Origin: a virus
DNA length: 64,000 nt
Reading direction: 5' to 3' (one strand)
Virus record (IMG/VR): IMGVR_UViG_3300027762_000003
Location: 16,028-80,027 of that record
The stretch's first letter is position 1. The number at the start of each line of letters is the position of its first letter. Below the pieces are notes generated by a model. The model saw only the letters and a list, made by a program, of their open reading frames with translations, was not told the origin of the DNA and made no database searches. Position numbers and translations under genes: made by a program. Below, one piece after another: positions 3,813 through 64,000 of the stretch.

Positions 3813-3814
3813 TT

Positions 3815-4752: not shown

Positions 4753-4760
4753 AGTAATTC

Positions 4761-9202: not shown

Positions 9203-9286
9203 AAATTCCCCTTATTCCAACACTATGCCTATCTTAATTCCGTGGTGGGCAGGCTACACTAGAAATATACTTACTCTAAAGTAGCC

Positions 9287-30663: not shown

Positions 30664-31569
30664 ATGCCAAAATTTATCACCCAACCCATGTTGTCAAACT
30701 TCTACACTGATGCCGTCTGCTTCGCGCTCGAAGCGCACCGGCAACAAATCAGAAAAAACGGAACACCCTATGCCGCACATCTCTTAGCGGTATCCAGCCT
30801 TGTGCTTGAGGCTGGAGGAACGGAGAAAGAGGCGATCTCCGCACTTTTTCACGACCTGCTTGAAGATATCTGGGGTGGAAAATTCCCAGATCAATGCTTG
30901 AACCGCAAAGGGGAATTTATCATTCCTTGCAACGATCCATACGTTCCGTCTGATTGGGTCGTTGACGGCGATATCCTCCGAATCATGAAGGCGCTGAGTG
31001 AGGATAAGTCCCTCCCCAAAGCGGATAGGAAAGCTCAGTACATCATAGGAGTGTCTGATCTCTCCAATCCTCTCCACAAGTCTATAGCACTCGTAAGTGC
31101 GGCGGATAAGCTCCATAATCTCAGGAGCTATTACCACGATTTCTGCACCTACGGCACTCTGATTGATGCTGAAGCTAAACGCTTCAACAAGCATTTAGTA
31201 GATGTTTACGCGGTAGCTGAATCTGTGCCCAGTCACTGGGTGAATGAAATGAATCGAATCTTAGAGCAACTATTAGACGAATACAACCTCCTCGAACTTG
31301 AGGAGGTCCGCTTCGATTTGAAAACGTGCGAGAAACAAATCGATGACAGAGAGAACGAGATCCGGAGGGAGTGCGGCGATATCATTTCCCTTCTTGATAA
31401 CCTAATCAGGGAGCATGAGACCCTGAATGATGACGGAACTCCCAGCCTTACAGGAGAGCAAGTGAGAGAGAGGGCTGCTCCACTCATCAAAAGGCTTGAA
31501 AGCTTTGCCCACAACTGGAAGAGACGCTTCTCTCCCGAAGAACGGTTCTTTCTAACAGGAGAAGAGTGA
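30664..31569 (+). CDS. HD-domain hydrolase, (p)ppGpp hydrolase-like
   Basis: 301 residues. Residues ~8-165 carry the layout of SpoT/MESH1-type HD domains: SNFYTDAVCFALEAHRQQIR, NGTPYAAHLLAVSSL with the first His, SALFHDLLEDI with HD, and later SAADKLHNLRSYY with the second Asp. The rest is a coiled-coil helper region. Such enzymes cut (p)ppGpp or related nucleotides; the target here is unknown. No synthetase domain is present. A phage that clears an alarmone could block the host starvation response. Confidence 0.8.
   Translation: MPKFITQPMLSNFYTDAVCFALEAHRQQIRKNGTPYAAHLLAVSSLVLEAGGTEKEAISALFHDLLEDIWGGKFPDQCLNRKGEFIIPCNDPYVPSDWVVDGDILRIMKALSEDKSLPKADRKAQYIIGVSDLSNPLHKSIALVSAADKLHNLRSYYHDFCTYGTLIDAEAKRFNKHLVDVYAVAESVPSHWVNEMNRILEQLLDEYNLLELEEVRFDLKTCEKQIDDRENEIRRECGDIISLLDNLIREHETLNDDGTPSLTGEQVRERAAPLIKRLESFAHNWKRRFSPEERFFLTGEE
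31231..31273 (+). repeat. 43-base duplicated block, source copy in HD gene
   Basis: Identical to 31626-31668 in the same orientation. Confidence 0.9.
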
Positions 31570-31610: not shown

Positions 31611-31668
31611 GCATTTCATTCACCTAGTCACTGGGTGAATGAAATGAATCGAATCTTAGAGCAACTAT
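31611..31668 (+). repeat. 43-base duplicated block and 13-pair hairpin
   Basis: The block 31626-31668 repeats 31231-31273 exactly. Just before it, CATTTCATTCACC pairs with GGTGAATGAAATG in the block, giving a strong hairpin 60 bases before the DHH-like gene. This looks like a template-switch scar; it may also act as a terminator or control element. Confidence 0.85.
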
Positions 31669-33412: not shown

Positions 33413-34576
33413 ATGGACTACGATATCCACGATCGCCGTCACGTCACTTATCACTGTGTATTCGATCTGCTCTCCCCCTTGAGCCACATTGGGGAAACTC
33501 TCGGTGGTAGCAATATCACCGTACTTAAACAAGCCAAACGCATCGCCATTGATGGGAGGGAGCGATCTCACTTCGTTTTTTCTTCCAACGCATTCAGAAA
33601 CGCCATATTTAGACGCAAGGGATTTGGATTTACCCTTGACGGATTAGGCGTGCAAGTTGACCCCACCACCCATCACACCCTTTTTGCAGGAGGGCGGATC
33701 GACTCCGGGACAGTTGCCAATATCGAGCTTGAAGACCAGTTTCGGCGCTGGCTTCCTGGCTTATCCGTACTCGGAACCGCCAAACCTAAAGACATGGGAG
33801 GGGAGAAAGGCTCCCAGATGATTAGTGGGCGGCTATCCGTAGGTGATGCTGTTCTTGTTTGTTACGAAACTATTAATTACATTTATCAGCAAGCGCCTGG
33901 ATTGATTCCCTATTCAATTTACTCATCCGTCAAGCGGATTATGGAGGCAAGGGAGGCGATCACTGCCGATATTTTTTCGCAACCGTCTCCAGAGGCGAGC
34001 GCTGCTTATGAGAAAGCACTGGAGGAGGAGCTACCCAAAATCAAGCAGCACTTGAAATCCTCTACTGCGTGCATTTCCACTAATCGCTTCTATCGCCGCG
34101 ATAGCGAGAGTGATCCTGATTTAGTGAAATACCTGAAAGCGCCTGAGCAGAAACTCATCGGCACTATCCCCGGACTTACGGAGGAAAAAAAGAAGCCGGT
34201 AGCAGAGAAACAGGAGTCTCGATTCATGGGAGACGACCACTTGATTGCTCCAGGCAACCAACTCTATAGCCGGATGGACATGCACGGCACGACTGTAGAG
34301 GAAGGATTTCTCTGTGCAGCGCTCCTAGAATTCGCCAAGCACCCTTATATAGGTGGTAAATCGAATCGAGGTAATGGGCACGTAAACTTGAGGATAAATT
34401 ACAAGGATCACACCATAGGGGAATCGGGAATATTGCTTTCGGTGGGAACCGACTACCAGCAATTAAGCGATCGCGCTCAAGAGAATTACCGTCGGTATTG
34501 TAATCATTTGGAGGAATTTAAGCACCATCTGGAATCCGCAGATTCTATGCCTAGACATCTTTTAGGAGGGAAATAA
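33413..34576 (+). CDS. csf2: Csf2, type IV Cas7-like backbone protein
   Basis: 387 residues. Cas7-type RAMP features: FDLLSPLSHIGETLGGSNIT near the start, a Ser/Asn-rich stretch FSSNAFRNAIFRR, RRWLPGLSVLGT, and GGKSNRGNGHVNL near the end as the glycine-rich loop. In type IV complexes several Csf2 copies form the RNA-binding filament. It sits in a compact row with csf3 and cysH. Family known from plasmids and phages. Recognition rests on these motifs and context; a profile search would settle it. Confidence 0.82.
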   Translation: MDYDIHDRRHVTYHCVFDLLSPLSHIGETLGGSNITVLKQAKRIAIDGRERSHFVFSSNAFRNAIFRRKGFGFTLDGLGVQVDPTTHHTLFAGGRIDSGTVANIELEDQFRRWLPGLSVLGTAKPKDMGGEKGSQMISGRLSVGDAVLVCYETINYIYQQAPGLIPYSIYSSVKRIMEAREAITADIFSQPSPEASAAYEKALEEELPKIKQHLKSSTACISTNRFYRRDSESDPDLVKYLKAPEQKLIGTIPGLTEEKKKPVAEKQESRFMGDDHLIAPGNQLYSRMDMHGTTVEEGFLCAALLEFAKHPYIGGKSNRGNGHVNLRINYKDHTIGESGILLSVGTDYQQLSDRAQENYRRYCNHLEEFKHHLESADSMPRHLLGGK

Positions 34577-34582
34577 ATAGAA

Positions 34583-35269
34583 ATGGAACCCATACAGATT
34601 ACCGCTTGGATGAGTAGCGCGATCGCGCTGCCCGACGATTGGTCGCCCGACTTGGTGGGCATAGTGATCGCTACCATATTTGATAAAGATCCTCGCCCTT
34701 TTCAAGAGGATTTATCCACACTTGAGGGGGTTCCCTTTGCTAAAACCGATTTAGGTTCCCCTCTACTTTGGTATTTTGCCTGCTCGTCCCCTTGCTACGA
34801 GCTACTTAGTGAAGAGGTGACCCGTTTCCGAAAACGCTGGGACGCTGATGACGGTCGGGTTAGCTGGGGTAAGCGCAAGCCCCAATTTAACGCATCGGAG
34901 GGGAGTGAGAAAAATTATGATCTCCCTCTTCCTCTCAGGGGAATGGAGCGGATCGATTGGTTCGCCATTGGAGATATCGGAGGCGCAGAGCGACTGCTCA
35001 AGCAAGTCACCCACCTAGGGAAAAAACGGAAAGGGGTTGTGGCGCGGTGGGTGGTGAAGGCAATCGCTCACGACTGGCATCTGTACCGCAACAACGAGCT
35101 AATGCGTCCTATCCCTATTAGCTGCAAGCGTCCCGAATGTCTTTCATACGGCATTCGGGATTGGGGATGGCGGCCCCCAATCTGGCTACCTAAGAATAAG
35201 GAGCGGTGTGCCATGCCGGTAATCACAGTAATCAAGCCATGGATGAACAATCAAGAGCAAGCTTTTTAG
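34583..35269 (+). CDS. csf3: Csf3, type IV Cas5-like protein
   Basis: 228 residues. Signs of Csf3: N-terminal beta-alpha region ITAWMSSAIALPDDWSPDLV, and near 150 THLGKKRKGVVARWVVKAIA followed by WHLYRNNELMRPIPIS, which matches the KKR...W...LMRPxP block of Csf3. In the complex it caps the RNA 5' end next to Csf2. It starts 6 bases after csf2 and its end overlaps cysH. Confidence 0.8.
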   Translation: MEPIQITAWMSSAIALPDDWSPDLVGIVIATIFDKDPRPFQEDLSTLEGVPFAKTDLGSPLLWYFACSSPCYELLSEEVTRFRKRWDADDGRVSWGKRKPQFNASEGSEKNYDLPLPLRGMERIDWFAIGDIGGAERLLKQVTHLGKKRKGVVARWVVKAIAHDWHLYRNNELMRPIPISCKRPECLSYGIRDWGWRPPIWLPKNKERCAMPVITVIKPWMNNQEQAF

Positions 35270-35931
35270 GATGGACTCAACTCCCTCGATTTAAGAAAAG
35301 AGTGGAGGAAGCCAAGCGAACCATCAATGAGGCACTGGCGATCGCTCCCTCCTATGTTGCGGTTAGTTGGGGAAAAGATAGCACCGTACTACTCCACCTG
35401 TGCCAACAAATCGATCCGAATATCAAGGCTATTTCACTAGGGAATCCGGATCGCTCTTTTTGTGGCTATGAGCAGGTAATTTCGGACTACTGCGATCGCT
35501 TCCCAACCAATCTCGAAACAATCGAAATAGAGGGAGATCACGTTCCCGACAAACTCAAGCAACTGCGACTGTGGGAGCGGTATCCTATGGCGATCGTAGG
35601 AGTACGGAAAGAGGAATCGCAATATCGCTCGATGGCTATTTCTCGTTATGGGCTGATCTACCAATTCACCAATGGCGAAAAGGAGGGAAGTTGGAGGTGC
35701 TTTCCTTTGGGATATTGGGGATGGCAAGATGTCTGGGGTTATATAGTGCAGCACGATTTACCTTATCTGAGTGCCTACGATCGCCAATCTTGGGAAAGGG
35801 GAAGGACGACTGACCATTTGAGTAAAAGCACTAAAAAGCGATGGCAGCGTACCCGATTAGAGGGATTAGCGTCCATCGCTCCTGAATACTATCAGTATTT
35901 GCTCAAGCAATACCCAGAAATGTTCAACTAG
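35239..35931 (+). CDS. cysH: CysH-like PP-loop ATPase of type IV-B locus
   Basis: 230 residues from ATG 35239 inside csf3; a GTG at 35206 is the other choice. PP-loop SWGKDSTVLLHL near the N-terminus, LGNPDRSFCGYEQVI, and IVGVRKEESQYR typical of the PAPS reductase/sulfotransferase-like family. The catalytic Cys of true PAPS reductases is not seen at the C-terminus. cysH-like genes are a known companion of type IV-B loci; their task is unknown, perhaps nucleic acid modification. Confidence 0.85.
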   Translation: MDEQSRASFLGWTQLPRFKKRVEEAKRTINEALAIAPSYVAVSWGKDSTVLLHLCQQIDPNIKAISLGNPDRSFCGYEQVISDYCDRFPTNLETIEIEGDHVPDKLKQLRLWERYPMAIVGVRKEESQYRSMAISRYGLIYQFTNGEKEGSWRCFPLGYWGWQDVWGYIVQHDLPYLSAYDRQSWERGRTTDHLSKSTKKRWQRTRLEGLASIAPEYYQYLLKQYPEMFN

Positions 35932-36256
35932 CTAGGACAAAATCGACCCCATTAGGGGTTACAATCCCATCCCCGTAGCTGACCGAAATAAACTCCAACC
36001 CTTCATGTCCAATATCGGAAAATCCATGAACTTGCCCGGATTCCTTATGGTAAAGATCCCCCTTCTTTATCTGGTGATTTTTGTCTCCATCAAACCAGAT
36101 CCCACTTCCTCTTAGGATTTGGATACTACAGGGTACTTCGTGACTATGGGGAGGGACTTCACCACCCTCTTCTATCCTCACCAGGAGGACTTGAGTATTG
36201 TAGCGATTGAAGATATTTTGAACGGTTGTTTTCTTGCACTCGTCAATCTCAAACAT
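35924..36256 (-). CDS. Cupin-fold protein inserted in the CRISPR locus
   Basis: 110 residues. Cupin pattern: EGGEVPPHSHEVPCSIQILR (metal His pair with Glu) and DLYHKESGQVHGFSDIG (second His motif). It is read against its neighbours, overlaps the end of cysH by 8 bases, and separates csf1 from the other csf genes. Function unknown; such cupins often bind small ligands or metals. Confidence 0.8.
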   Translation of the reverse strand: MFEIDECKKTTVQNIFNRYNTQVLLVRIEEGGEVPPHSHEVPCSIQILRGSGIWFDGDKNHQIKKGDLYHKESGQVHGFSDIGHEGLEFISVSYGDGIVTPNGVDFVLAS

Positions 36257-36293
36257 ACACTAATCCAATTTTGTTGACCCATCTATTTTAACC

Positions 36294-36968
36294 ATGAATT
36301 ACTGTTATCTGTGCGGGAAAGACGGAGATCGCCCATTAGATCTTCCCAAAACATTCACCGCCCATAACCTAGCCAAAAACCCCACGTCTGACGTACTCTG
36401 TGATCGCTGTTACGGGACGATTGCAGGTGACGAAAAACAGCTCTACTACTGGAACGAGAACAAGAATCCGCCTGCATGGTCAAAGTTATGGGGGCGATCG
36501 CTCTCCAGGCTTTACGTGGGAGAAGAACTGAGATCACCCATCATCGAAGGAGAGCGGGAAGGTACGGCGATCGTCCACTCTTTACCCACTCGTGTAGAAA
36601 TCCGGCAATGGCTCATCAATCCACCTGAGCCACCATTTACAATCGCCATCTCGGTTTCAGGGCAAAAGCATATTTTACCTTTTGCCCAAGAAGCGCATGA
36701 TAGAGAGCGGTTTCCGATTCGATTTGAGTTAACCTCTTTGGAGGTCAACCGCCAAGAATTCACTCGCCTACTCGCTAATTTTGAAATGCTTTACGACATG
36801 GGATTGACTAAAGCGGAAATCCTTAAAGGCAATTACAGTGTGTCACGAGTGGCGGCGATTCCTTATGCGGATTTCCTGAAAAGAGAGGAGGAGATCGCGC
36901 AGTACCGTGGCACTGACCTGCTAGAGTTGGCGGCGTTTGTAGCGCAAAAGGAAGGGGCGATCGAGTAG
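36294..36968 (+). CDS. csf1: Csf1, type IV zinc-finger protein (Cas8-like)
   Basis: 224 residues. The N-terminus CYLCGKDGDRP and VLCDRCYGTIA gives a CxxC...CxxC zinc finger as in Csf1. The middle has PPFTIAISVSGQKHILPFA, and a helical part follows (FEMLYDMGLTKAEILKGNYS). In type IV the protein is the large-subunit relative. It is usually first in the locus; here it is last, after the inverted cupin gene. Near its start TTGACC lies 14 bases before TAACC. Confidence 0.78.
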   Translation: MNYCYLCGKDGDRPLDLPKTFTAHNLAKNPTSDVLCDRCYGTIAGDEKQLYYWNENKNPPAWSKLWGRSLSRLYVGEELRSPIIEGEREGTAIVHSLPTRVEIRQWLINPPEPPFTIAISVSGQKHILPFAQEAHDRERFPIRFELTSLEVNRQEFTRLLANFEMLYDMGLTKAEILKGNYSVSRVAAIPYADFLKREEEIAQYRGTDLLELAAFVAQKEGAIE

Positions 36969-45184: not shown

Positions 45185-46528
45185 ATGCCCTATTCACCTG
45201 AAGTTAAATGGGATTTTTACCAAGGCGATCACGAAACAGCGATCGCCTACTGGAGTGGCCCCCGCCCATCCGAAACCCAACGCAGTGCCGACACATTTAA
45301 CCGGTATCTTGACCAGTCGATTAACACCTACAACATCATCAAGGAACTGGTGTCCCACTATGTGAACGCCTTAGTAGGTAAGCCATTCAACTATCCAGAA
45401 GATGAACTTCTATCTGAGTGGCTCCATACCCAAAGACGCTTATCCGCTTTCCGTCGTCGCGCCGACCCATTTATGGAGGCGGTCACACAAGCGCTAGTCT
45501 CTGGGCGATCGTTCATCCGCTTGTACACCCCGGAAAGATTCCAGAACTCTAAAAATTCCCTACTCCTAGTTACCCCGCACCTGTGCCATCTTCAAGACTC
45601 TAAGCCAGAGTACGATTCTGATGGATTCTTAAATCGATTCACCTATACCTATCGCGATTCAAAGGGCGGGCGAAAGCAAGAAGTATATTTCATTGATGAA
45701 TCGGGATACACTCACATCCTGGCTAATGGTGAGGAGATTATTGTCGATCGCCGTGGGATGATGCCTATCTTTGAGCTATCGGTCGATCCGGTAATCTCGG
45801 ATGCTGCCATCTGTGCCCAGAGAGCGCTTACCGTACTACTCACGATGTTAAATGAGTTTATCTGCTCTTCTGCCCTTCCTGAGCATATCGTCACCAATGC
45901 TCAAGTACCAGGTGAAATCATTGAAGATCCCGATCACCCTAGGGGACAACGGTTTGAGCCGAGACAAGATCTACTTGAGTTTGGGGCTAACCAGTTAGTG
46001 ATGCTCGATGGGAAACCAATCGGCGATCCAGATATGCCATCAGGGTTCACCAGTCCGTCCGTTTACTTCAAGGAACCGAGTAACCCGCAAACTTTTAGGA
46101 CTGCATTAGACATCCTCATGGAGACGGTTTATAGAGAGGCGGGATTGGGGCATTTACTGACGAGTGGAGATGGTTCATTGTCCGGGGTAAGTCGTGCCAC
46201 ACTAAAGTCCGACTTTGAGCTTCGACTAGGGAACTATAGGGAATATATTGAGGATTTCTTTAACGCTATTCTGGAGTATGTCTTGATTGAATTGGGGCAA
46301 AAAGACCCCTATGTAGAGACTCAATTAAATCTTGATACCGGGAATATTTTACCAGAGGAACGTAATGCAATCTTAGAGGAACTCAACTCAGGAATCCGAT
46401 CTCGTAGGTCTGCTATGCGGGCGCTCGGCATTGAAGACCCTGATGCAGAGGAGGAGCAAATACTACTGGAACAAAACCGGGATATGGGGGTGACCGATAT
46501 CCCGGATGAAGAAGCTACCCTCGATTAA
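45185..46528 (+). CDS. Portal protein
   Basis: 447 residues. The features of SPP1 gp6-type portals: an N-terminal helical part (NTYNIIKELVSHYVNALVGK), FMEAVTQALVSGRSFIRLYT, DPVISDAAICAQRALTVLLT, and the late acidic end LPEERNAILEELNSGI. It forms the ring through which DNA enters and to which the tail joins. Good length. Followed by an antisense scaffold-like gene, then capsid. Confidence 0.85.
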   Translation: MPYSPEVKWDFYQGDHETAIAYWSGPRPSETQRSADTFNRYLDQSINTYNIIKELVSHYVNALVGKPFNYPEDELLSEWLHTQRRLSAFRRRADPFMEAVTQALVSGRSFIRLYTPERFQNSKNSLLLVTPHLCHLQDSKPEYDSDGFLNRFTYTYRDSKGGRKQEVYFIDESGYTHILANGEEIIVDRRGMMPIFELSVDPVISDAAICAQRALTVLLTMLNEFICSSALPEHIVTNAQVPGEIIEDPDHPRGQRFEPRQDLLEFGANQLVMLDGKPIGDPDMPSGFTSPSVYFKEPSNPQTFRTALDILMETVYREAGLGHLLTSGDGSLSGVSRATLKSDFELRLGNYREYIEDFFNAILEYVLIELGQKDPYVETQLNLDTGNILPEERNAILEELNSGIRSRRSAMRALGIEDPDAEEEQILLEQNRDMGVTDIPDEEATLD

Positions 46529-47183
46529 AGTTTAAGCGGGTTCTTTTTAGATAATCCCCAACTAGATCCTCTTTCTTGCTGGCCGGGCGATCGTTACTTG
46601 GTGCGCTTGGCAGCGATCGCTCCCGTGTTTGGGGTTCAGGTGATTCTCGCTTGAGCGCGGGGAGGAACATGCTGAGGGTCGGGTCACTGGCGATCGCCTG
46701 GGTTATTTCCTGAGATTGGTAATATGCTTTCCCTCCTGAAATCTCAATGCTGTCCACATCAATAGCCGAAATATTAGAGAGGATATTTGCATCAAACCCA
46801 GTTAGCCTACTCACCTCTTGCAGCGTGTATTTCCGGTTGATGGTTTGCAATTCTTGTCGGCTTTCCGCTAATTCATTCTTAGCCAGTTCCAAGTCTGATT
46901 TCATCCTTTGATTAGCCAGGTGTAAATCTCGTTTCTCTTGTGAGACTTTCTTCACTACCTGGTCAATGGAAATCGTCGGATCACTACCCTCTAATAGGCT
47001 TTGGATTTCTGATTGTGCGCTTGCCAACTCAGCTTCAGCCTTGCGCAACTTATCGTTCTTTTCCCTGATTTCACCAATAACTTTAGTCTTGCCGGATTCT
47101 AGTTCGGAAATTCGAGAGGCGATCGCGGTTTTTATTTCTTCATCCGCAATAGCCTCTAAGGCTTGTTCGTAATTGTAAGGCAT
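46515..47183 (-). CDS. Scaffold-like coiled-coil protein, antisense to head genes
   Basis: 222 residues. A long coiled coil (residues ~25-115: AIASRISELESGKTKVIGEI...) then a small domain and a basic C-terminus (SKKEDLVGDYLKRTRLNFNR). This is the plan of phage scaffolding proteins, which guide shell building and are then lost; the basic tail would bind the shell. It lies between portal and capsid, the usual place, but on the other strand, overlapping the portal end by 14 bases. Confidence 0.65.
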   Translation of the reverse strand: MPYNYEQALEAIADEEIKTAIASRISELESGKTKVIGEIREKNDKLRKAEAELASAQSEIQSLLEGSDPTISIDQVVKKVSQEKRDLHLANQRMKSDLELAKNELAESRQELQTINRKYTLQEVSRLTGFDANILSNISAIDVDSIEISGGKAYYQSQEITQAIASDPTLSMFLPALKRESPEPQTRERSLPSAPSNDRPASKKEDLVGDYLKRTRLNFNRG

Positions 47184-52124: not shown

Positions 52125-52511
52125 ATGTCCACTAGCCCGTTCGCATCCCTGGAAAATGCCACCCTCACATTTAAGTTATCTGCTCAAGCTATGGAGGTTG
52201 ATGAGTGGGGGAATCGTTTACCAGTACAGGAGGATCTCGTGATTCGGTGCTGGCTCAAGGAGGACAATCCGTCTCCTGGGATGTTGGAGATCGATGAAGA
52301 TATGTACCCCGGTGTTTCTGATAGTTTCCAGAATGTCAAAGGATATTGCATTGAGCCTCAATTCTTGCCGGATTCGGTTACTCATCTCTCAGAGGCGATC
52401 GCCGTAATTAGCGGGCAAGTGGGACGCTTTGTTTTGCGTAGGGGGATCGACGGTATGGCGACATACATCACTGGGTCTCCGATTAGGGGGGTATTCAGGA
52501 GGACAGTATGA
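52125..52511 (+). CDS. Neck or head-tail joining candidate
   Basis: 128 residues, beta-rich (ENATLTFKLSAQAMEVDEWG). Size and place between head genes and tail tube fit a head-tail joining protein. Overlaps next start by 4 bases. Confidence 0.5.
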   Translation: MSTSPFASLENATLTFKLSAQAMEVDEWGNRLPVQEDLVIRCWLKEDNPSPGMLEIDEDMYPGVSDSFQNVKGYCIEPQFLPDSVTHLSEAIAVISGQVGRFVLRRGIDGMATYITGSPIRGVFRRTV

Positions 52512-52927
52512 ATCATGAATCGATTAAGCAATTGCGCTCCAGTATCGAGTCCGCATTGGTGGACAAGTTGGGGCTTTATACTTTTTCTAACGGGATCAAG
52601 GAGAGGGCGATCGCTGTCGATTTAGGAAACTATCCTCCACAAAATACCAAAATTGAAGGACTAGAAGTCGTTATTACTCCATATAAAGAAATCAATTCAA
52701 CAGGGTTACTTAATGATTTCTCTGATTTTGAGTTTTATCACGAGATCCTTCTCAAGCAATGGAGTTCAACTCCATCAACTGATTTGATTGACTCAATTTT
52801 GATTATCCGAACATTATTTGGAAGTCGCGTCCAGGTAGGTGTTAGGGTCTTGCGCCTAGACGATATATCAACAATTGAGTCATGCCCACTCATGTATTTA
52901 GAAAGGAAGAGTTTACGTCATGGGTAG
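52508..52927 (+). CDS. Tail terminator candidate
   Basis: 139 residues, alpha/beta (KQLRSSIESALVDKLGLYTF, GLEVVITPYKEINSTGLLND). Its place just before the tail tube gene is that of tail terminator proteins. Overlaps next start by 8 bases. Confidence 0.55.
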   Translation: MNHESIKQLRSSIESALVDKLGLYTFSNGIKERAIAVDLGNYPPQNTKIEGLEVVITPYKEINSTGLLNDFSDFEFYHEILLKQWSSTPSTDLIDSILIIRTLFGSRVQVGVRVLRLDDISTIESCPLMYLERKSLRHG

Positions 52928-53630
52928 TATTAGAAGAACTCGGTTTCCTCAGCAGGGGGATAAAACCTGGATTCGAGTCCAGCGTAGCCTTATTGCTCCT
53001 GTTACAGATACTTCAGGTGTGTTAACTTTGAACACCCAAAGTATCACTCTGGGGACAGCCGCTACGGCTGGCGCGGTTAGTTTAACTGTTACCGCGCTCA
53101 CTTATCCAGTTTATAAGGATAACTTCATCCTATTTACTGATGAATATGATTTAGAATATCTTGTCGAGCTGACGGACGATGCCGATGCGGGTGCGACGGC
53201 TTTAGATATTGCACCTCTAGCACAAGGCATCCCCGCCGCATCGGTAGCTGATTGGCCGCCGGAGTTCCTAGACCGGACAGATTCTACTTGGGACTCCTCA
53301 GCATCGACAGACGACTTTACAACCTACAACACGGGCGGTTACCAGATGTCGATGGTCACAACCATTGCAGAGACTTGGACGCTCCCTGGCTATCACACAG
53401 AGAAAAACGCCGGGCTGAAAACCATCGATAAAGCCTACCGGGATAAAGCTGAATTTTGGCTGATCTTCCAGTACCCTCCCTTCCCGACCTATGCCGAAGG
53501 TGAGGTCAGAGTCGGGCGGGCTGTCTGCACAAGTGCGTCAACTGCTGCACCTGCTGACGGAAGGATCGATGCGGAAAGAAGCGGTAATTTCAACGCCGCA
53601 CCTTATCTGATACCTTCTGTGCCAGCCTAG
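52920..53630 (+). CDS. Major tail tube protein
   Basis: 236 residues. Beta-rich with a central insertion; ending PAPADGRIDAERSGNFNAAP. Location after neck genes and before chaperone and tape measure genes fits the tail tube. No sheath gene follows, so a long flexible tail is likely. Confidence 0.65.
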   Translation: MGSIRRTRFPQQGDKTWIRVQRSLIAPVTDTSGVLTLNTQSITLGTAATAGAVSLTVTALTYPVYKDNFILFTDEYDLEYLVELTDDADAGATALDIAPLAQGIPAASVADWPPEFLDRTDSTWDSSASTDDFTTYNTGGYQMSMVTTIAETWTLPGYHTEKNAGLKTIDKAYRDKAEFWLIFQYPPFPTYAEGEVRVGRAVCTSASTAAPADGRIDAERSGNFNAAPYLIPSVPA

Positions 53631-54141: not shown

Positions 54142-56613
54142 GTGGATGTAGTCAGGATAGTAGGTAAGCGAAATAAGTCGATCCAGTCCAGTGAGGAGAA
54201 TGCGCTATCTAGTATCCTGTCAGGAGAGAAGAAGCAATATTCCCAGGTTGAGAGATCTATAGTCCGTGAGTATTCGCGGCTTATAGAACAAGAGTCATTT
54301 ACCCCTGACCAAATCGCCACACTTGTTGATAGCCAGTCTAAGTCATTAAGCGTTAAAAGCTCAACCGTTAGAAGTCTTAAGTCCCTATACTCTAAACAGT
54401 CCAATGAAGGGTTTGTACTGAGTCGGGAATTGATGGATCGGCGATCGCCGCAAGAGAAATACAAAAGCCCTAAATCTGACTTTGTGCAAGAGGCGATTGA
54501 TGACACTAAGTCCAGGTTAGGCGATCGTCAAAGGGACTTTTCTAATAGGAATAAAGCTATCCTGACTGAGGCTGCGCGTAGAGGGTGGGGTAGCGACAAA
54601 TTAAGGAGATCGCTACGTCGGAATTATCAGTCCTACGAAAGTAATGTTAAGAGGATTTTACAAACTGAATCGATTAAGTCCGTAAATCAATCCCTACTTA
54701 ATCAATACAAAGCCAATGGGGTGGAGTATGTCCAAAGAATATCCCAAGAAGATGACAGAGTATGCGCTTTTTGTGCGGAAAGGGCGGGCAAAGTTTACCC
54801 AATAGATAAAGCCCCGACTGTAATCCACCCTAATGATCGCTGCTACAACATGCCCTGGTCTGTGGCTTCTTACATGGAGGGGATGACCGAAGATGAAGTC
54901 ATGGAGGAACATCTGTCCGATGTATCCGCTAGGGCATCGGGACGATCCATTGAACTAACTCCATTTGAGAAGCAAGCGGGAATCCTTGAATCGGATATCT
55001 CAAGTCCTATTGATTTGTACCTAGAGGGTATTGACTCTATCCCGATTGAGGAGAGGATTAACTACGATCGACAGCTCGTTGAAAGGCTTCGAGATTACAG
55101 AATCCCCGGAGAAATGGGGGAGGCTCCTTTCTATCGTCAAGTCTGGTCTTTTGTCCAAGGTGCGTTATTAACCGGGTTGACTCTTGGTGCTTATGCGGTC
55201 GTCCGGCAAAGGTATAGAGCCAGGATTCCACTTAGCGCACTAGAGGCTTCAACCCTTGCAAGCTCTAAGGATTTCAACTATTTGACAGCTTCTTATTTGC
55301 ATCAAAGTAGGGGAGAAAAGACCGTCCTGAACGAGACGGAAGAAGAGCTTGCCAGGAGAGAACGAGATTACCAGAAAGCCCAAAATATAGAGAGTGCTGA
55401 AAGAGTCGTGTTTATAGCTGGGGGGCTGGCGGGGCTGGGTGGATTTAGCTCTCTTGAAGCTAGAGATCAAATCGCGGCGAATATGGGAGAGAATATAACT
55501 TTTATAGATACCCCTAACCCTGACTTTGAGATAAGTATTGGACTAGCTGAGTTACAGCAGAATCTATCTGGGCTTGGCCCATTGGCTGGGACAATAGCCG
55601 GAATCATGACCGCTAAAAATATGGCTCAGATGATGGCGACTAATGCGCTGGTGAATGGCAAAAATCAAACCTCTATTAGAATGGCTGCCCAAGCCCTTAA
55701 TTTTCATAAGCAATACCCGGATAAGCCAATCACCTTAATGGGATTTTCGGGGGGTGGAATCGCTGCAAAGGAGGCGGCTATCATCCTAAATCAACTAGGA
55801 CTAAGGGTTAACGTTATCTCTTCTGGCTCTCCTGATTTTGGTATCTTTCGTGAGTCTGACTTTTATCCTGGGCAGCACACTGGATTTAAGGGCAAAGGAG
55901 ATATTGTCCCCCTTGCTGGAGGCCCACCGATGAATAATATTGAATTAGCGGATGTCCCTAGCCATTCTTACCTGGATTACGCAACTAGCCCCACCTATCA
56001 AAGAATGCTGGCAGATGCCATGGCGAACGGCCGTCCAACTCTTGAGCATGAAAACAATAAGGAAAGCTTTAATCGCTACTGGAGCGAGTGGGCAGAAGTT
56101 AATAAGCAGACCCCCAACTTTGATATCGACACTTCGCTAGAGTCGTCTTTGTCCTCATCTATTGACGCTGCCAGGGATGCGGTAACGGGTATATATGGGG
56201 GCATCTCTGAGTTTATTAAAGGGGTTACAGATCCAAGTAAGATAGATGATGCGTTAAACAGTACCCTTGACCCGGACAAGTCTGCAAAGCGATCGCTTTC
56301 GGTGGCATCTACAGCAATCACGTCTACCCTACTCACTGAGAGGATAGACCCGTTGCAATACAAGTCAACAGAAAAATCTTACCGCATGTCTGTTGATAAC
56401 TTAATCTCAGATGTCTACAGTGACTTCAAAAATGGTGAAGTTCGATCGCCTAAGTCCTATAGGGAGGAGATCTCCAATGGGATTTCACTGACAGATTATC
56501 AGGAACAGAAAATTGAGAAATATATCAGTAATTTAATTTCCCGGTTAAAACACGCTTACGCCACCCCGTTATCTGCCTACCCCTCAGAGATTGCCCTATC
56601 AAGTAGTTTTTGA
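54142..56613 (+). CDS. SPP1 gp7-like head protein fused to alpha/beta-hydrolase-like domain
   Basis: 823 residues, GTG start 54142. Residues ~20-125 are charged and helical. At ~200-235 the Mu F/SPP1 gp7 signature appears: DDRVCAFCAERAGKVYPIDK then APTVIHPNDRCYNMPW. About 340-360 is hydrophobic (GALLTGLTLGAYAVV). From ~400 to ~640 a lipase/hydrolase-like fold follows with the nucleophile elbow GFSGGG near 534-539 and the strand RVNVISSGSPDFGI after it. The last part is helical. It may open membranes at infection or be packaged; not proved. Confidence 0.7.
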   Translation: MDVVRIVGKRNKSIQSSEENALSSILSGEKKQYSQVERSIVREYSRLIEQESFTPDQIATLVDSQSKSLSVKSSTVRSLKSLYSKQSNEGFVLSRELMDRRSPQEKYKSPKSDFVQEAIDDTKSRLGDRQRDFSNRNKAILTEAARRGWGSDKLRRSLRRNYQSYESNVKRILQTESIKSVNQSLLNQYKANGVEYVQRISQEDDRVCAFCAERAGKVYPIDKAPTVIHPNDRCYNMPWSVASYMEGMTEDEVMEEHLSDVSARASGRSIELTPFEKQAGILESDISSPIDLYLEGIDSIPIEERINYDRQLVERLRDYRIPGEMGEAPFYRQVWSFVQGALLTGLTLGAYAVVRQRYRARIPLSALEASTLASSKDFNYLTASYLHQSRGEKTVLNETEEELARRERDYQKAQNIESAERVVFIAGGLAGLGGFSSLEARDQIAANMGENITFIDTPNPDFEISIGLAELQQNLSGLGPLAGTIAGIMTAKNMAQMMATNALVNGKNQTSIRMAAQALNFHKQYPDKPITLMGFSGGGIAAKEAAIILNQLGLRVNVISSGSPDFGIFRESDFYPGQHTGFKGKGDIVPLAGGPPMNNIELADVPSHSYLDYATSPTYQRMLADAMANGRPTLEHENNKESFNRYWSEWAEVNKQTPNFDIDTSLESSLSSSIDAARDAVTGIYGGISEFIKGVTDPSKIDDALNSTLDPDKSAKRSLSVASTAITSTLLTERIDPLQYKSTEKSYRMSVDNLISDVYSDFKNGEVRSPKSYREEISNGISLTDYQEQKIEKYISNLISRLKHAYATPLSAYPSEIALSSSF

Positions 56614-57544
56614 TCGATTTGGCGAGTGACCCAACCAGGGACTTTAGATCCATCCACAAGTTTTTTCAAAGTTTTAGCTACATCAAGACCCATTATTTCC
56701 CGTGCTTCTTCAATCTCGAATTGTCTTTGCCACGGGTTAAACCAATCCGGATCGGCTTTTTTAGCCCCCTGGGATTGGGCGTAAGCTACCCCAACGTTGG
56801 CGATCGGTATACTAACTAAGTTCGCCATCTCCTTATGGAATGTTCGAGCGGTTATGAGAGCTTGGCGAATGTGAATAATGGACTGATCGCCGAAGTTCTC
56901 ATAACTCCACCTTTGATCGCCGGGGTAATAGAGTCTTAAGCGCTCTGCGATTTCTCCCCAGTTGATTTCCTTTGCTTTCCCCTAGATGAGGAAGGGGAAG
57001 CTTTTTCTGCATCTAGGGGGGTATAGTCTTCCACTACTTCCCAATCAAGCAGGGCTTCGGCGGGTGTCTCCGTATAGTCCACAACGATATAAGTGAACAG
57101 TATATCTTTACGTTGCAGTACAACCCATCCGTTTTCCTTGGCGCAATTTAACGCAGCATCTTTGCCGTCAAACCCCTCTACCTTGAGTTTCCAAGATGGA
57201 ATCCATTCACTTCTTTCCCCATCAAAAAAGCGGAACAACGCTTCAATAAGTGGGTAGTTTGGGAGCGCTTCTGTACTGGCTCGATTCCAGTCTTTTCTAT
57301 ATCGGGACTGGAGCATCATCGTCACAATCTCGGTCGTGAATTCCCCGTCTCCGAGTCTCCCCAACTTTAGATCGTTCTGGACTTTTAACGCATATCTATC
57401 CCAGGCTATTTTCTCATTAGGAGTCAAGCACCCCATTTTCCTGATTTCAACTTCCCCAATTTGAGGGCTACCAACGACCTCGGTCATGTCAGCTTCAACT
57501 GATGGGGGTGTCTTGAATGTCAGGCTTAAGATATTTGTGGGCAT
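56577..57544 (-). CDS. Tail assembly chaperone, frameshifted GT form
   Basis: The minus-strand frame of 202 residues (57544-56936) is the G form: MPTNILSLTFKTPPSVEADM, then WDRYALKVQN and SPSSSRGKQRKSTGEKS. At GGGAAAG (56981-56975) the -1 frame is open and runs through NWGEIAERLRLYYPGD, FHKEMANLVSIPIANVG to 56577, giving about 322 residues. GGGAAAG is the slippery site of lambda gpG/gpGT. This pair chaperones the tape measure, encoded just beyond on the other strand. Confidence 0.85.
56936..57544 (-). CDS. Tail assembly chaperone, G form
   Basis: The unshifted product of 202 residues that ends at TAA 56936. See the GT entry. Slippery site about 12 codons before the stop. Confidence 0.8.
   Translation of the reverse strand: MPTNILSLTFKTPPSVEADMTEVVGSPQIGEVEIRKMGCLTPNEKIAWDRYALKVQNDLKLGRLGDGEFTTEIVTMMLQSRYRKDWNRASTEALPNYPLIEALFRFFDGERSEWIPSWKLKVEGFDGKDAALNCAKENGWVVLQRKDILFTYIVVDYTETPAEALLDWEVVEDYTPLDAEKASPSSSRGKQRKSTGEKSQSA
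56975..56981 (-). promoter_or_regulatory. Programmed -1 frameshift site GGGAAAG
   Basis: In the G frame the heptamer reads G GGA AAG, of the XXXYYYZ type. The -1 frame is closed by TAG just upstream, so shifting must take place within the ~40 bases between this TAG and the TAA of G. Confidence 0.8.
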
Positions 57545-57761
57545 AATTTAGATTTTCGTCAAATAACGGTGAATAAGATTGTTGAGGAATCAATACATCG
57601 TAGCGATCGCCCGTAGATGGATCGATGACTTGTACGATTTTCTCGACTCCTTTCTCAATAAATATTATGCCACAGCGCAACTGGTTACTGTTGGTGATCG
57701 CGCTACAATGGACTAAGAACACTCCCTTGCCTGTTAGGTAATCTATAATAGGTTTTCCCAT
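57495..57761 (-). CDS. Hypothetical protein before the tail chaperone
   Basis: 88 residues, MGKPIIDYLTGKGVFLVHCS, alpha/beta. It overlaps the chaperone start by 50 bases. Its ATG shares the CCATGG with the divergent gene at 57760. Not recognised. Confidence 0.55.
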   Translation of the reverse strand: MGKPIIDYLTGKGVFLVHCSAITNSNQLRCGIIFIEKGVEKIVQVIDPSTGDRYDVLIPQQSYSPLFDENLNYAHKYLKPDIQDTPIS

Positions 57762-58143
57762 GGTTCACTTTAAGGTTACGCAAAGTAAATTCAAGGTTAG
57801 CAAAAAATTTATTCAAGAAAACAGGGAAATATTTAAAGCGGTTATGGAGGATCTAGGAAAAGAATTCACCGCCGTATTCAATGACCCTAATGAGTTCCCA
57901 GAGTATCCGGGTGATATTGTGGACACTGGGAAACTGAGAGACTCACAGAAAATGGTTGAAGTCAGAAAAGATCAATATCAGTTTGAATGGTACACTCCTT
58001 ACGCTGGATATGTCTTTAGCGGATATATCACTCGTAGAAACAGAAGGATGCCTGGTCGCAACTGGGTGAAAGCAGGGGTTAGGCGTTTTGATTTTAGAAA
58101 GGTCTATCGGGAAAAACTTAAGGGTTACAAAGGAGAGAAATAG
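57760..58143 (+). CDS. HK97 gp10-like minor tail/joining protein
   Basis: 127 residues. VDTGKLRDSQKMVEV, WYTPYAGYVFSGYITRR and NWVKAGVRRFDFRKVYREKL follow the pattern of gp10-type proteins (TG.L..S, YA..V). Joins or ends the tail. TATAAT lies at about 57741. Precedes the tape measure by two bases. Confidence 0.7.
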   Translation: MVHFKVTQSKFKVSKKFIQENREIFKAVMEDLGKEFTAVFNDPNEFPEYPGDIVDTGKLRDSQKMVEVRKDQYQFEWYTPYAGYVFSGYITRRNRRMPGRNWVKAGVRRFDFRKVYREKLKGYKGEK

Positions 58144-58145
58144 TC

Positions 58146-61100
58146 ATGGCGATCGGCGGATCTATTGGTAGCATAGGGACGGCTACTTTTAATATTGCAT
58201 TAAGCATAGGAAGTATTCCCAGGCAGATTGGTACTGCAACCCAGTCTATTACTCAAAGCATTAATAGAAGTATAGCGGGCATCAATCAGAGAGTCCAGGC
58301 GATTACGCAATCACAGACTTTTCAAGTTATTAGATCTTTGCAGGCAGTTACTAATTTCATCCAGGTAAGTCAGATCGCTTTTGCCTATGCATTCGTGAAA
58401 GAGATCCCCAAGATGATCAAGGTCACAGTTAAGGTGATGGCTGGTCTAGGGAAAGGAGTCGCCCAGGTAGCTGTATTGGCTGTTAAAGGCGGGGCGATCG
58501 CCGTCAAGTCAGTAGCCCATGTAGTAAAAGGACTATCTGGATTACTCAAGGTTGGAAGTTTTGTAGTTAAATCCGTAAGTAATTTCATAAAAATCGGGGC
58601 AGGCATAGGTAGGATATTTGTTCCCTCTATTGCAAGAATCGGGGCAGCGTTTGCCAAGTTAGGAGCGGGGATAAGTGCCAAAGGGATTAGTCTGTTTGCT
58701 AAGTCTGGAGCAAGTGCGTTAAAGGTAATCACGAAATCAGCAGCAGACGTAGGGAAAGCTCTTGCGAAACTTGGTGGCGAGGGCGCAACAACAGCATTAA
58801 AGTCTCTCTCTGGGACTCTGACACAATTATCTCAAAAATTTGCGTCTGGATTACCAGCGATCGCCAAACAAGCAGGCGCTGCTCTAAATTCCGTGAAGCA
58901 GACGGTAATGGGACTAGGTAGTTCTTTTCAGAATGTTATAGGTAATCTTGGAAAAATAGCGCAATCACCTACAACTGCACTCGCCCCCTTAGTCCAAGCA
59001 AACAAAACGCTTCGTGCTGCATTGAATGATATGGCGTACTCTGCTGGTAAGTCTTTATCGGATATGCTTGCGTTCTTTACTAATACGTTCTCTAAAGTAA
59101 AAGATAGTATTCAGTCTTTATTTAAGACGGTTTCTGGCATCCCAAAGATTTTCTCTGGGATTAAGTTTCCTGACATAGGGCAAAAGTTTATTAATGTTAT
59201 TGAGAAAATAAAATCAACTTTCAATCTTGATTTTCTTAATAAAGTGATTAAGGGCGTACAGTCAAAAGTGGGCGCTCTATTCAATGACTTGTCTAAACTA
59301 GGCGGGTCTTTTAAAAAAGATCTTTCATCTGCATCCACACTCATCTCAAAAGGGTTGACAGGGCTAAAAGAAAGATTTGGGGAAGTCATAAAACTTGCGT
59401 CTGGGATACCTCAAGTAATCACTAAGGGGTTTTCTGCTATCAAAGGGATATCTTTTGCTCCCCTCAAGGCTGGGGCAACAGAGGTATTCAAGCTTCTAGG
59501 GGGAGGATTCCAGAATGTAGGAAAAGGGATTAATGCGATCGGCGGCGTTATTGGAGGGGTCGTCAAGCAATGGGGGTTTGCGATGGCATTCCTTGGGGCT
59601 GCCACGCCAGCCATTCGCACATTAGGAAAAGCTTTGTTTGCCCCATCCATGAGTCCACTGGAATCGTGGATACTTTATTTAATGAGAGGGTTGGACGCTG
59701 CATCCTCTAGTGCCACAAAAATATTCACCGCCCCCACAAAGTTAGCAAGTACCGGTAAGTTTATTTATCTGAATGAAGCAGGGGTCATAGATAGCTTCAC
59801 ATCAACATTTTCAAAGGCAACTGCGAAGGCTCAGACCATCATAAACAGGTTCAAAGAATCGGGAATAAAAGGACTGAAAGAGGAGTTTACGCGACTAGGC
59901 AAAGAGATAAAAGACTCTCTTTCGGGTATAAGTCAGAGGGCTGCTAAGGCAGGAGAGGCTGTTTCTAACACCGCTAAAAAAGCAAGAGAGGCGACTGCTA
60001 ATGCGGCTAAAAAAGTGGGTAGCGACATCAAGAAAATCAACGAGATGATCGAGAACGATACTTTCGATGCGGCTCTCGATAAAGCAATTGATGAAGCGTT
60101 TGACCCAAGCAAGAGAACTCCAAGAACTAAACCACAGAGGAGATCCGCTGCCTCCGTCCCTACTCAAGCAACAGCACAATCCGTCTCTCAAGCAACAGCA
60201 CAATCCGTCTCTCAAGCAACAGCGCAAAGCGTGTCATCGGCAACGAAGCAAGGGATAGAGTCTGGGGTCAAGGCAGCACAACAGTCAATACAGAAAGGGA
60301 TCTCAACTCCGTCATCTAAAGGGGCTGCTGAAGGGATGGAGTCTGGGGTCAAAGCGGGATCGAGTGTTGCGATGAAGCGGTTCAAAGAGATGAAGTTTGG
60401 ACAGGCAGCAGCAGACGCTTTCAACAAAGAGTTCCCTAGTAAGATAGCTCCGGGGGTTGTCGCCGCACAGAAAAATTTTGAGAAAATGTGGGCAGCAGGA
60501 TTTAGGAAAAGCGCGAATCAATTTGATATTAAATTGTTAGGTGATGAGTGGAACAAGAAATTAAATGAAGGATTCGCAGGTCGTGTACGAAAATCTGTAT
60601 CTGCGCCCGTACAAGACGTAGCTGATTATATTCCCCAAGTCCAAGGACTGAATGAGTATCTAAATTCAACAAAAAGAACGGCTTATGCACTCAGGGAATC
60701 CGCTATCGCGTTTTTGAGTTTAAAAGAATCCGCCGTTAGTTTTCGTTTGGCGATCACTAATGTTACCGCAGTGTATAGACAGCTTAAAACGGAGATGACT
60801 GCGGCGATTTCGGCGGGTATGTCAGCAACGGCTGGGCTGGGAGCGGGAGGAGTCACTCAGATGAATATGTTTGACCGGCAGCAGGGATTACGTCTTTCTA
60901 TTGAGCTTCAAACTGTAACAAACCAAATTAAAGCGCTTGCTGTCGCATCCGGGGACAGCAAGTCAATGGTTGCTGAGGTGGTCAATGAGATTAATCGATT
61001 GGGCGCTACTACCGCTAAAACACCTCAAGAAATTGCACTGACTGCGGTTTCGTTAATCCGACTAGGGTTTAGTGCCCAACAAGTAAAAGAGACGCTTGAT

Positions 61101-64000
61101 GGAGTCGTGAAAACCTCGATCGCTACCGGACTGGAGATGAATGTAGTAGCAGAAACAATGGCGGCGGCATTAAATCAATTCGGATTAGACGCAAGTGAGT
61201 CGGGAAGGATAGGCGATCTGTTCGCTTCAGTGACCGCGAATTCTGCCGCAAATGTCGTCGATATTGGGGAGGGATTAAAGTATGTTGGGGCTTCAGCAAA
61301 AGCCGCAAATCAAAATATAGAAGACACCGTAGCTGTTTTAGGGATGTTGAGGTCGGCTGGGATGGAAGGCGGAATGAGCGGGACTGGGATGATGGCCGCA
61401 CTGAGATCGCTGCAAATGGCGGGTGCTTCGTCGTTTGGCGCGGGAGACATGATTGGCGCTTCCGGTGAATCGACAATTGGAGATAGCGCGGCGGGTGGAA
61501 AGCAAAGAGCAAATGCATTAGAGCAGTTGGGTTTAAGTAGTAGAGACATTCTGACCGCAGAAGGAAAAACAAAATCTATTTTAGACATCATCCCTAGGCT
61601 AAAAGAGCAAGTGGAGGAATTGAAACAGACAGCAGAGGGTCAGGCATCCGTCCCCGTTATTCTCGATACTTTGTTTGGGGAGTCAGGGGGGCGTACAATT
61701 AGCGCTCTCCTAGGAATGACAAACGAGCAGATGAATAAAATTATTTCATCTGCTCGGAATTACAGGGGGTTTGCAGCAGAAGCTGCGGAGATAATGAATG
61801 AGGGAGTTGTCGGCAAATTAAGAGAAATGCAATCCAAGATTACAGCGATCGCCCTTACTGTAGGCGATACATTTAAACCCATTATGGCGCTTTTTATTGG
61901 AGGCGTTAATCGGGCGATCGGTATGTTCGCTCTACTGCCCAAGCCTATGCAATCAGTATCGCTATTGTTTGCGACAACAGTACCTCTTATAACCGCTTAC
62001 TATAGAGGACTTAATTTACTAATTTATGCTAGTGATGCGCTAGTAATTGCCAAAAAAGCCGTCACATTTGCAATGCAAGAAAATGCATTGGCATTAACTA
62101 TCCTCAAAGTAAAGCAAATCACTTTAGCCGTAGTAGAAATGGCTAACGTTGTCAGAAATCAAATCTCAATCAGAGTCATGAGGATGATGACTCTGACTTA
62201 TACAAAACAGATATTTGCGGCGGATTTGCTGTTTATAAAAGAGAAAGCCTTGGCTTTAATAACGGGGGCGCTTTCGGCAGCATATGGCACTACTATTCAA
62301 ACGATGAGGAAAATGGCTAACCAGTTTCTAATAGCAGCTCAGTACGCTGGTACTTTTTATATGGCGTGGATTGCGGTTCAGGCTTTGCTTGAAAAATCCC
62401 AAGGAGCAAAAAATGCATCAATTATAGATGGATTGACCGAGCAAGCGGGAAAAATTCAATCGATTAATCCGGATAATGGAATTGATTCTGTTGGGGAAAA
62501 GATAGCTAATGGAATCGTTAAAGGGGTTGGGCAGGCAATGCAAGTTGTTAAACACCAAGTAACCCAAGGCATTAGCGATATTATGGGGGTTGTCGATAAC
62601 ATTAAAATACATGGGATCGTAGAGGGGATCAGGCAATCTATTGTTAATTCAGTATTAGTTGGTAAAGTTCTTATTATTAGCGCTGTAACGGCGATCGCTG
62701 CAACGATATTTATGGCGATGTTCAAAACAAAAAGAACGGTTACTGTAAGCCTAAAACAGTATGAATCTGCGTTTGATAATACATTAAAGTCAATTGGTCA
62801 AAAGCTAAACATATTCAAGACGGCAAAAGATTTCGCGATGTCCATCAAAGGGGAATCTATCGGAAAAGCGGCTTTACTGGCAGGGGGGGTAGCGGGAGCG
62901 GGAGGTGCTATAGCGGCAATAGTAACACTAATAAGCCCTGAACTTGCTTTAAAAATCGGCAGCATAATAGCGGGTATAGGAGGAATAGTTACTGCATTTG
63001 TGCAGTTTCGCGCATTTTTAGAGACCGGAGCTATTCAAGAATCATTAAAAAACGTAAGAGATGGATTTGTCGCTTTTTACGACTATATAGCTAAGGGTGG
63101 GCTAGTTGCTTCCCTTCAGTCAGCCAAAGATGGGCTTCTTGCATTTCAGGCTTACCTCGCTTCTGGAGGTATATTGAAATCATTAAAAGCTTTCCAGGTT
63201 GCGTCTATTGCTGCCCTAGCCAAAGTCAAAGCAGCAGCATTCGCTACAAGTGTAACCCTGACAGCAACTATCGGAATGGTTTTAGGGATTGGCGTTCTAA
63301 TCGCAGGTTTAGCAATGCTGGCACTCTCGCTTCGAGCCGATCCTGTTTCCAAGTACGGGAAGGCTTGGGGTTTTGCAACCGCAGAGCAACGTGGTGCGGC
63401 TAAAGAGATGATAGCGCTGGAGAAGTTGAGCAGCAAGCTCAATGCGGGAATTCAGGAGCGGCAAACCCTTCTGCTGAATTACAAATCATACGATAAAGAC
63501 ACTTTTGCGGGCAAGGCCGAGGCGGCGATCGCTCAAGCTCAACAAGAAATCGATTTACTGAAACAAGTGGAGACAAAAGATGCCGATCATCAAAAAATGA
63601 TCAATAACGAAATAAGTATAAGGGAAAACCACATCTCCTTACTAAGAGCAAGGAATTATGAGTTACAAAGGGGGGTAAAAGCAGAGGAGACTATGAGGTT
63701 TACCCTGGAGCAGATAAATGACCTCATCGCTGAACAGACTTTTGAGATTGAAAAGAATGCCAAGCGTAGAGAAATGGTGATCGCACAGTCCGTATCTCAA
63801 GGGTTGATTTCCAAAGAGTCAGGGCAAACCCAGTCACTCCAAAATCAATTGAGAGCAGAAAAAAATAGATTAAAAATGGAGGAAGCCGCCCTACGCTCAA
63901 TTGAGGAATCAAAGTTCGGAGAGACAGACGTTGAGGAATTGGACAAGTTAGAGGAGGAATCTAAGAAAAAGCAACTCGCTCTATATGATATGAGAGCAGA
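58146..64000 (+). CDS. Tape measure protein, partial (runs off right edge)
   Basis: At least 1951 residues with no stop in the window. Residues 1-~900 are rich in Gly, Ala, Lys and hydrophobic helices. The core TP901-type region lies near 905-1250: NEINRLGATTAKTPQEIALT, AVSLIRLGFSAQQVKETLDG, and GMSGTGMMAALRSLQMAG. Several hydrophobic helices follow (about 1270-1400 and 1500-1720). The length sets tail length, so a long tail is expected; it also helps DNA enter the host. ATG 58146 follows the gene before it by two bases. Confidence 0.93.
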   Translation, partial: MAIGGSIGSIGTATFNIALSIGSIPRQIGTATQSITQSINRSIAGINQRVQAITQSQTFQVIRSLQAVTNFIQVSQIAFAYAFVKEIPKMIKVTVKVMAGLGKGVAQVAVLAVKGGAIAVKSVAHVVKGLSGLLKVGSFVVKSVSNFIKIGAGIGRIFVPSIARIGAAFAKLGAGISAKGISLFAKSGASALKVITKSAADVGKALAKLGGEGATTALKSLSGTLTQLSQKFASGLPAIAKQAGAALNSVKQTVMGLGSSFQNVIGNLGKIAQSPTTALAPLVQANKTLRAALNDMAYSAGKSLSDMLAFFTNTFSKVKDSIQSLFKTVSGIPKIFSGIKFPDIGQKFINVIEKIKSTFNLDFLNKVIKGVQSKVGALFNDLSKLGGSFKKDLSSASTLISKGLTGLKERFGEVIKLASGIPQVITKGFSAIKGISFAPLKAGATEVFKLLGGGFQNVGKGINAIGGVIGGVVKQWGFAMAFLGAATPAIRTLGKALFAPSMSPLESWILYLMRGLDAASSSATKIFTAPTKLASTGKFIYLNEAGVIDSFTSTFSKATAKAQTIINRFKESGIKGLKEEFTRLGKEIKDSLSGISQRAAKAGEAVSNTAKKAREATANAAKKVGSDIKKINEMIENDTFDAALDKAIDEAFDPSKRTPRTKPQRRSAASVPTQATAQSVSQATAQSVSQATAQSVSSATKQGIESGVKAAQQSIQKGISTPSSKGAAEGMESGVKAGSSVAMKRFKEMKFGQAAADAFNKEFPSKIAPGVVAAQKNFEKMWAAGFRKSANQFDIKLLGDEWNKKLNEGFAGRVRKSVSAPVQDVADYIPQVQGLNEYLNSTKRTAYALRESAIAFLSLKESAVSFRLAITNVTAVYRQLKTEMTAAISAGMSATAGLGAGGVTQMNMFDRQQGLRLSIELQTVTNQIKALAVASGDSKSMVAEVVNEINRLGATTAKTPQEIALTAVSLIRLGFSAQQVKETLDGVVKTSIATGLEMNVVAETMAAALNQFGLDASESGRIGDLFASVTANSAANVVDIGEGLKYVGASAKAANQNIEDTVAVLGMLRSAGMEGGMSGTGMMAALRSLQMAGASSFGAGDMIGASGESTIGDSAAGGKQRANALEQLGLSSRDILTAEGKTKSILDIIPRLKEQVEELKQTAEGQASVPVILDTLFGESGGRTISALLGMTNEQMNKIISSARNYRGFAAEAAEIMNEGVVGKLREMQSKITAIALTVGDTFKPIMALFIGGVNRAIGMFALLPKPMQSVSLLFATTVPLITAYYRGLNLLIYASDALVIAKKAVTFAMQENALALTILKVKQITLAVVEMANVVRNQISIRVMRMMTLTYTKQIFAADLLFIKEKALALITGALSAAYGTTIQTMRKMANQFLIAAQYAGTFYMAWIAVQALLEKSQGAKNASIIDGLTEQAGKIQSINPDNGIDSVGEKIANGIVKGVGQAMQVVKHQVTQGISDIMGVVDNIKIHGIVEGIRQSIVNSVLVGKVLIISAVTAIAATIFMAMFKTKRTVTVSLKQYESAFDNTLKSIGQKLNIFKTAKDFAMSIKGESIGKAALLAGGVAGAGGAIAAIVTLISPELALKIGSIIAGIGGIVTAFVQFRAFLETGAIQESLKNVRDGFVAFYDYIAKGGLVASLQSAKDGLLAFQAYLASGGILKSLKAFQVASIAALAKVKAAAFATSVTLTATIGMVLGIGVLIAGLAMLALSLRADPVSKYGKAWGFATAEQRGAAKEMIALEKLSSKLNAGIQERQTLLLNYKSYDKDTFAGKAEAAIAQAQQEIDLLKQVETKDADHQKMINNEISIRENHISLLRARNYELQRGVKAEETMRFTLEQINDLIAEQTFEIEKNAKRREMVIAQSVSQGLISKESGQTQSLQNQLRAEKNRLKMEEAALRSIEESKFGETDVEELDKLEEESKKKQLALYDMRA
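60165..60236 (+). repeat. Three 24-base tandem repeats in the tape measure gene
   Basis: Unit CAAGCAACAGCACAATCC plus GTCTCT, twice exact and once degenerate; encodes QATAQSVS repeats in a flexible stretch (about residues 674-697). Confidence 0.9.

Follow-up and report, generated by a model that had tools for sequence, protein, structure and literature searches.

The tail assembly chaperone of a phage normally lies in line with its two clients, and the chaperone of phage lambda is in line with the tail tube and tape measure genes. Assembly of the lambda tail requires both G and GT, and the fixed proportion between the two proteins is crucial, with the tape measure protein bound by G and the tube subunit bound by T (PMC5009743). 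Reversed genes inside runs of same-strand genes are described in noncontiguous operons, among them menE-menC-MW1733-ytkD of S. aureus, ith/tha of phage 80alpha, and tai/ati of phage phi80, where tai lies against the Q-driven late operon; in these cases the reversed genes are accessory or regulatory (PMC7154746, PMC11087260, PMC11364771). The excerpts returned by our literature search describe no tail chaperone that is encoded antisense to its tape measure gene.

Here we analyze a gene that is very probably a lambda-type G/GT chaperone of a cyanobacterial siphovirus, brought most likely by local rearrangement into an antisense position. It has in common with lambda G/GT the heptamer GGGAAAG in the same register, the end of G shortly after it, the −1 extension, and a location near the genes for the tail tube and the tape measure; it differs in that no sequence family match is detectable and in that it reads against the tube and tape measure. 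The resemblance to noncontiguous operons, as judged by gene order alone, is that one or more reversed genes lie within a run of same-strand genes, whereas the reversed gene here is a core assembly factor.

Locus organization

The window analyzed is a stretch of 64,000 nucleotides, bases 16028–80027 of the 80,027-base record IMGVR_UViG_3300027762_000003, and coordinates below are window positions. The last 122 bases of the record are an exact copy of its first 122 and the tape measure open reading frame (ORF) crosses the join, which suggests that the record is circularly complete.

On the plus strand lie a tail terminator-like protein (52508..52927), whose function is assigned by position and which has counterparts in S-CBS4-like phages (E 1.4e-8) and in the related phage contig IMGVR_UViG_3300036390_000001 (L123; E 4e-12); the major tail (tube) protein (52920..53630; phrog_1407, E 1.6e-4; L123 homologue, E 1.2e-4); a MuF-like protein with a long C-terminal part (54142..56613; phrog_115, E 9e-16); a neck or tail-completion protein (57760..58143; phrog_5, E 3.8e-5; L123 homologue, E 7e-5); and the tape measure protein (58146..63998, continuing across the record ends to record position 3249; phrog_305, E 2.9e-4). 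The MuF-like domain occupies residues 128–240 of the 823-aa protein encoded at 54142–56613; the C-terminal part has a GFSGGG motif reminiscent of alpha/beta hydrolases, and Pfam matches there fall below cut-off.

G/GT is located between the tube (52920–53630) and tape measure (58146 onward) genes, together with the lipoprotein-like, MuF-like and neck genes that also intervene. All three parts of the chaperone block are on the minus strand: the T extension (56577..56974, 132 residues plus stop), the 202-aa G (56936..57544), and an 88-aa ORF (57495..57761) directly upstream of G and overlapping it by 50 nt. This last ORF belongs to the range 56577–57761 quoted by the sequence-only reading, which did not mention it. 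The block ends are tight: the MuF-like ORF and T converge with 37 nt in common, and the start of the 88-aa ORF overlaps the neck start codon head to head. S-CBS4 gp031, also of 88 aa, is the positional counterpart of the 88-aa ORF, since it equally precedes G; two comparisons of the ORF with gp031 gave suggestive motifs at E 0.77 and E 0.038, which do not establish homology.

The assignment of G/GT to the strand opposite to the tube and tape measure is correct. The broader wording that the gene is antisense to its tail genes holds for those two and fails for the putative distal tail genes, since tail-tip-like genes at 1809–10104 (weak matches) are also on the minus strand. In the scaffold position between the plus-strand portal and major capsid protein there is likewise a minus-strand ORF (46515–47183) with a strong coding score, a weak scaffold match (E 0.076) and no relatives found in our searches; judged from its sequence, it may be a second reversed assembly factor. 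Given these two loci, this genome characteristically mixes strands, and the chaperone is the clearest case.

Elsewhere in the window, PADLOC identified, on the plus strand (33413–36968), a set of type IV CRISPR-Cas effector genes composed of Csf2/Cas7-like (33413–34576, E 8e-33), Csf3/Cas5-like (34583–35269, E 7e-31) and Csf1/Cas8-like (36294–36968, E 4e-26) proteins, all below the NCBIfam cut-offs, and a CysH-like PAPS reductase (35206–35931), a partner that we take to recall subtype IV-B. No CRISPR array was seen near the set. A 46-nt direct repeat (31228–31273 and 31623–31668, 98% identical, spacing 395) was also observed.

Reading frames and identity of G and T

The heptamer GGGAAAG lies at 56981–56975 on the minus strand (56975..56981), where it begins on the third base of a G codon (G GGA AAG), the lambda register. 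The −1 frame has an in-frame TAG just before the heptamer, is open from 56981, and stops at 56577–56579, which gives 134 codons counted from the heptamer and 132 new residues after the slip; the slippery site and the open frame of 132 residues noticed in the sequence-only reading are thus borne out in coordinates and register. The predicted fusion GT is a conceptual translation of 322 aa (56577..57544, minus strand) with the junction peptide SRGK-AKEINWGEIAER. The expected number of in-register GGGAAAG copies within the 43-nt G/T overlap is 0.002; the whole 80-kb record holds 18 copies of GGGAAAG, and 75 of the 6151 stop-to-stop stretches in the window reach at least 118 codons, real genes among them. 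Codon usage supports the minus-strand reading of both frames, at 0.21 bits per codon for G and 0.24 for the T frame, both above the other five frames.

No Pfam or PHROG family matches the window G or T, and their identity therefore rests on relatives. Single-protein searches with G, T, the major capsid protein and MuF in viral_contigs returned no direct relatives, and T and TerL alignments found nothing in genome_contigs. Cyanophage PSS2 gave a weak match to T (E 0.03 database-wide), and its G is also similar to the window G. An alignment search found a much closer phage, L123, in which a single stretch is hit by nine queries from the window (G and T taken as two) and the tail synteny is common to both; its G matches at E 5e-7 and its T at E 5e-12 (tblastn) from residue 1, the slip site. 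A further contig, L124, matches the window T at E 1e-15 among candidate stretches. The L123 proteins in turn match described phages, T matching S-CRES1-3 and S-CBS2 and G matching PSS2, and the T homologue of S-CRES3 carries the annotation "tail assembly protein", as an annotation only.

Profiles extended these links in both directions. A T profile built from the window, PSS2 and L007 retrieved S-CBS4-like phages, and an S-CBS4-like T profile built without the window matched a single place in the 80-kb record, the window T (E 8.8e-8); the latter profile did not find PSS2 and had no match in Planktothrix phage PaV-LD. Across the cyanosiphovirus G/T pairs (L123, L124, PSS2, S-CBS2, S-CBS4 and S-CRES3), T is homologous or profile-linked to the window T. 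The proteins differ in length, with a longer T in PSS2, L007 and L123 than in the window, and G of PSS2 and L007 is without an insertion that the window G has in its C-terminal half. The AlphaFold models are poor (pLDDT 41 and 57), and the fold gives no support to the assignment. On sequence grounds, the relatives strongly support the G/GT reading.

Orientation in relatives and origin of the arrangement

A TerL alignment against viral_contigs yielded 80 S-CBS4-like contigs at about 39–43% identity. T was searched for in 44 of these 80 records and, with S-CBS4 and L007 added, in 46 records in all; its place was found in 23 of the 46, and the misses are mostly short fragments. These 23 records together with PSS2, L123, L124, S-CRES3 and S-CBS2 form the set of 28 relatives used below. 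S-CRES1 and S-CRES2 also match T but stay outside this count, which concerns strand.

In all 28 relatives G/T and the flanking tail genes share one strand. The tape measure is visible downstream on that strand in 25 of them, among which L120 and L121 have a long ORF in its place, and the contigs L007, L113 and L117 end before the tape measure position. In the window, the block of the 88-aa ORF, G and GT reads on the minus strand against the plus-strand tube, MuF, neck and tape measure genes. The strand had been called unusual and comparison with related phages proposed; that comparison upholds the remark, and the antisense G/GT is apparently unique to the window among the relatives examined.

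Gene order places the change within a small region. L123, in ordinary orientation, has head closure, neck, terminator, tube, G, T and tape measure, and S-CBS4-like phages have head closure, tube, terminator, neck, gp031, G, T and tape measure. The window order is head closure, terminator, tube, lipoprotein-like ORF and MuF, followed by the reversed T, G and 88-aa ORF, and then neck and tape measure. From these orders, the region 53.6–58.1 kb is reshuffled in a way that a single in-place inversion does not explain. Because the relatives keep G/GT in line, the antisense position most likely arose in the window lineage by local rearrangement.

The antisense state is known from one metagenomic assembly, and it may be asked whether the inversion exists in the contig alone, the real genome being ordinary. 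Reliance on a single record and the ordinary orientation of every one of the 28 relatives would fit such an assembly error. Against it, the limits of the block coincide with gene ends (the start codon of the 88-aa ORF at the neck start, and the end of T within the MuF ORF, close to where that ORF ends), no long inverted repeats were found on its flanks, the record closes on itself through the 122-nt overlap, and re-inverting the block where it stands would still leave a gene order unlike that of the relatives, since neck and MuF are displaced too. We regard an artefact as unlikely and favor a rearrangement in the phage lineage.

In S-CRES3 (L126 6566-7033, minus strand) and S-CBS2 (L127 7605-8069, minus strand), an antisense HNH endonuclease gene directly follows T. 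By comparison of these sequences, the T 3′ junction takes insertions in relatives; a link between the HNH insertions and the rearrangement in the window is only a guess.

Predicted frameshifting and conservation of the slip site

The sequence-only reading had proposed that the gene makes G and GT forms by a −1 frameshift, and both homology and the relatives' slip sites support it: an in-register XXXYYYZ heptamer lies inside the G/T overlap in each of the 28. It is GGGAAAG in PSS2, L007 and S-CRES3, GGGAAAA in L123, and AAAAAAG, AAAAAAA or AAAAAAC in the remaining relatives. T homology starts at or near the slip site in the cyanosiphovirus G/T pairs.

An alternative is that T is translated on its own from ATG 56828, as a separate gene, with no frameshift. 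An 83-aa ORF with its own ATG is indeed present, and in the annotations of PSS2 (L002 12121-12654), S-CRES3 (L126 6079-6585) and S-CBS2 (L127 7121-7624) T stands as a gene of its own that starts internally. These annotations miss the slip site and the conserved beginning of T, and the conserved slip sites suggest that the annotated start truncates T in all three phages. In the window, a start at ATG 56828 would leave out the most conserved portion of T, whose beginning is the slip site: the conserved block (residues 3–42) precedes the first start codon in the T frame (residue offset 51). Full-length T would thus not be makeable by internal initiation, and a frameshift fits where a second start does not. 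With the in-register heptamer also kept in all 28 relatives, a separately initiated T is very improbable, and we retain GT as the predicted frameshift product.

RNA signals around the site were weak. Structure 3′ of the slip site, where a stimulatory hairpin would lie, was not beyond chance (z −0.11). An imperfect 15-nt inverted repeat (56979–56993 with 57005–57019, minus strand) ends in the slip site and is a possible upstream hairpin; the 151-nt region that contains it folds just slightly better than shuffled sequences (z −1.42). Promoter- and terminator-like sites occurred in chance numbers only.

The unusual orientation and a promoter signal not beyond chance could also suggest that the minus-strand copy is a relic, with the working chaperone elsewhere in the genome. 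We give this little credence, since neither frame is broken, codon use in both is coding-like, and the T profile matches one place only; the G profile matches none, which leaves half of that control blind. An invertible switch flipping between orientations, to which the clean block with convergent and divergent neighbors might point, was rejected as having a negligible probability, because the block is not bracketed by any of the longest 25 of the 26 inverted repeat pairs found and no recombinase was noted adjoining it.

Discussion

For the reading that we prefer, a functional antisense G/GT, we propose that the minus-strand mRNA would be translated mostly into G (202 aa), with a minority of ribosomes predicted to slip by −1 at G GGA AAG to yield GT (322 aa). 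If lambda is a guide, G would coat the tape measure protein and the T part would recruit tube subunits. Because their strands are opposite, the chaperone and the tape measure would come from different mRNAs, and the chaperone would be made from its own minus-strand transcript, apart from the tape measure mRNA.

The promoter signal of the neck and tape measure genes is at chance level and no non-coding gap precedes them, and plus-strand late RNA therefore probably crosses the chaperone block as antisense RNA. A further-reaching idea, which we consider doubtful, is that the tail genes form a noncontiguous operon, in which plus-strand late RNA, spanning MuF through the neck and tape measure genes, would run through about 1.2 kb antisense to the chaperone mRNA, and polymerase collision or double-stranded RNA would couple the doses of chaperone and tape measure. 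If this were true, the noncontiguous operon would control stoichiometry in addition to the ribosomal slip, and the gene under this control would be a core assembly factor and not an accessory one.

The chaperone itself is an ordinary G/GT chaperone, and the new part is its derived antisense position. If the phage works with its chaperone encoded opposite to the tape measure, the two genes would not need to be cotranscribed, and the antisense chaperone would be a natural test of dose setting without tape measure cotranscription.
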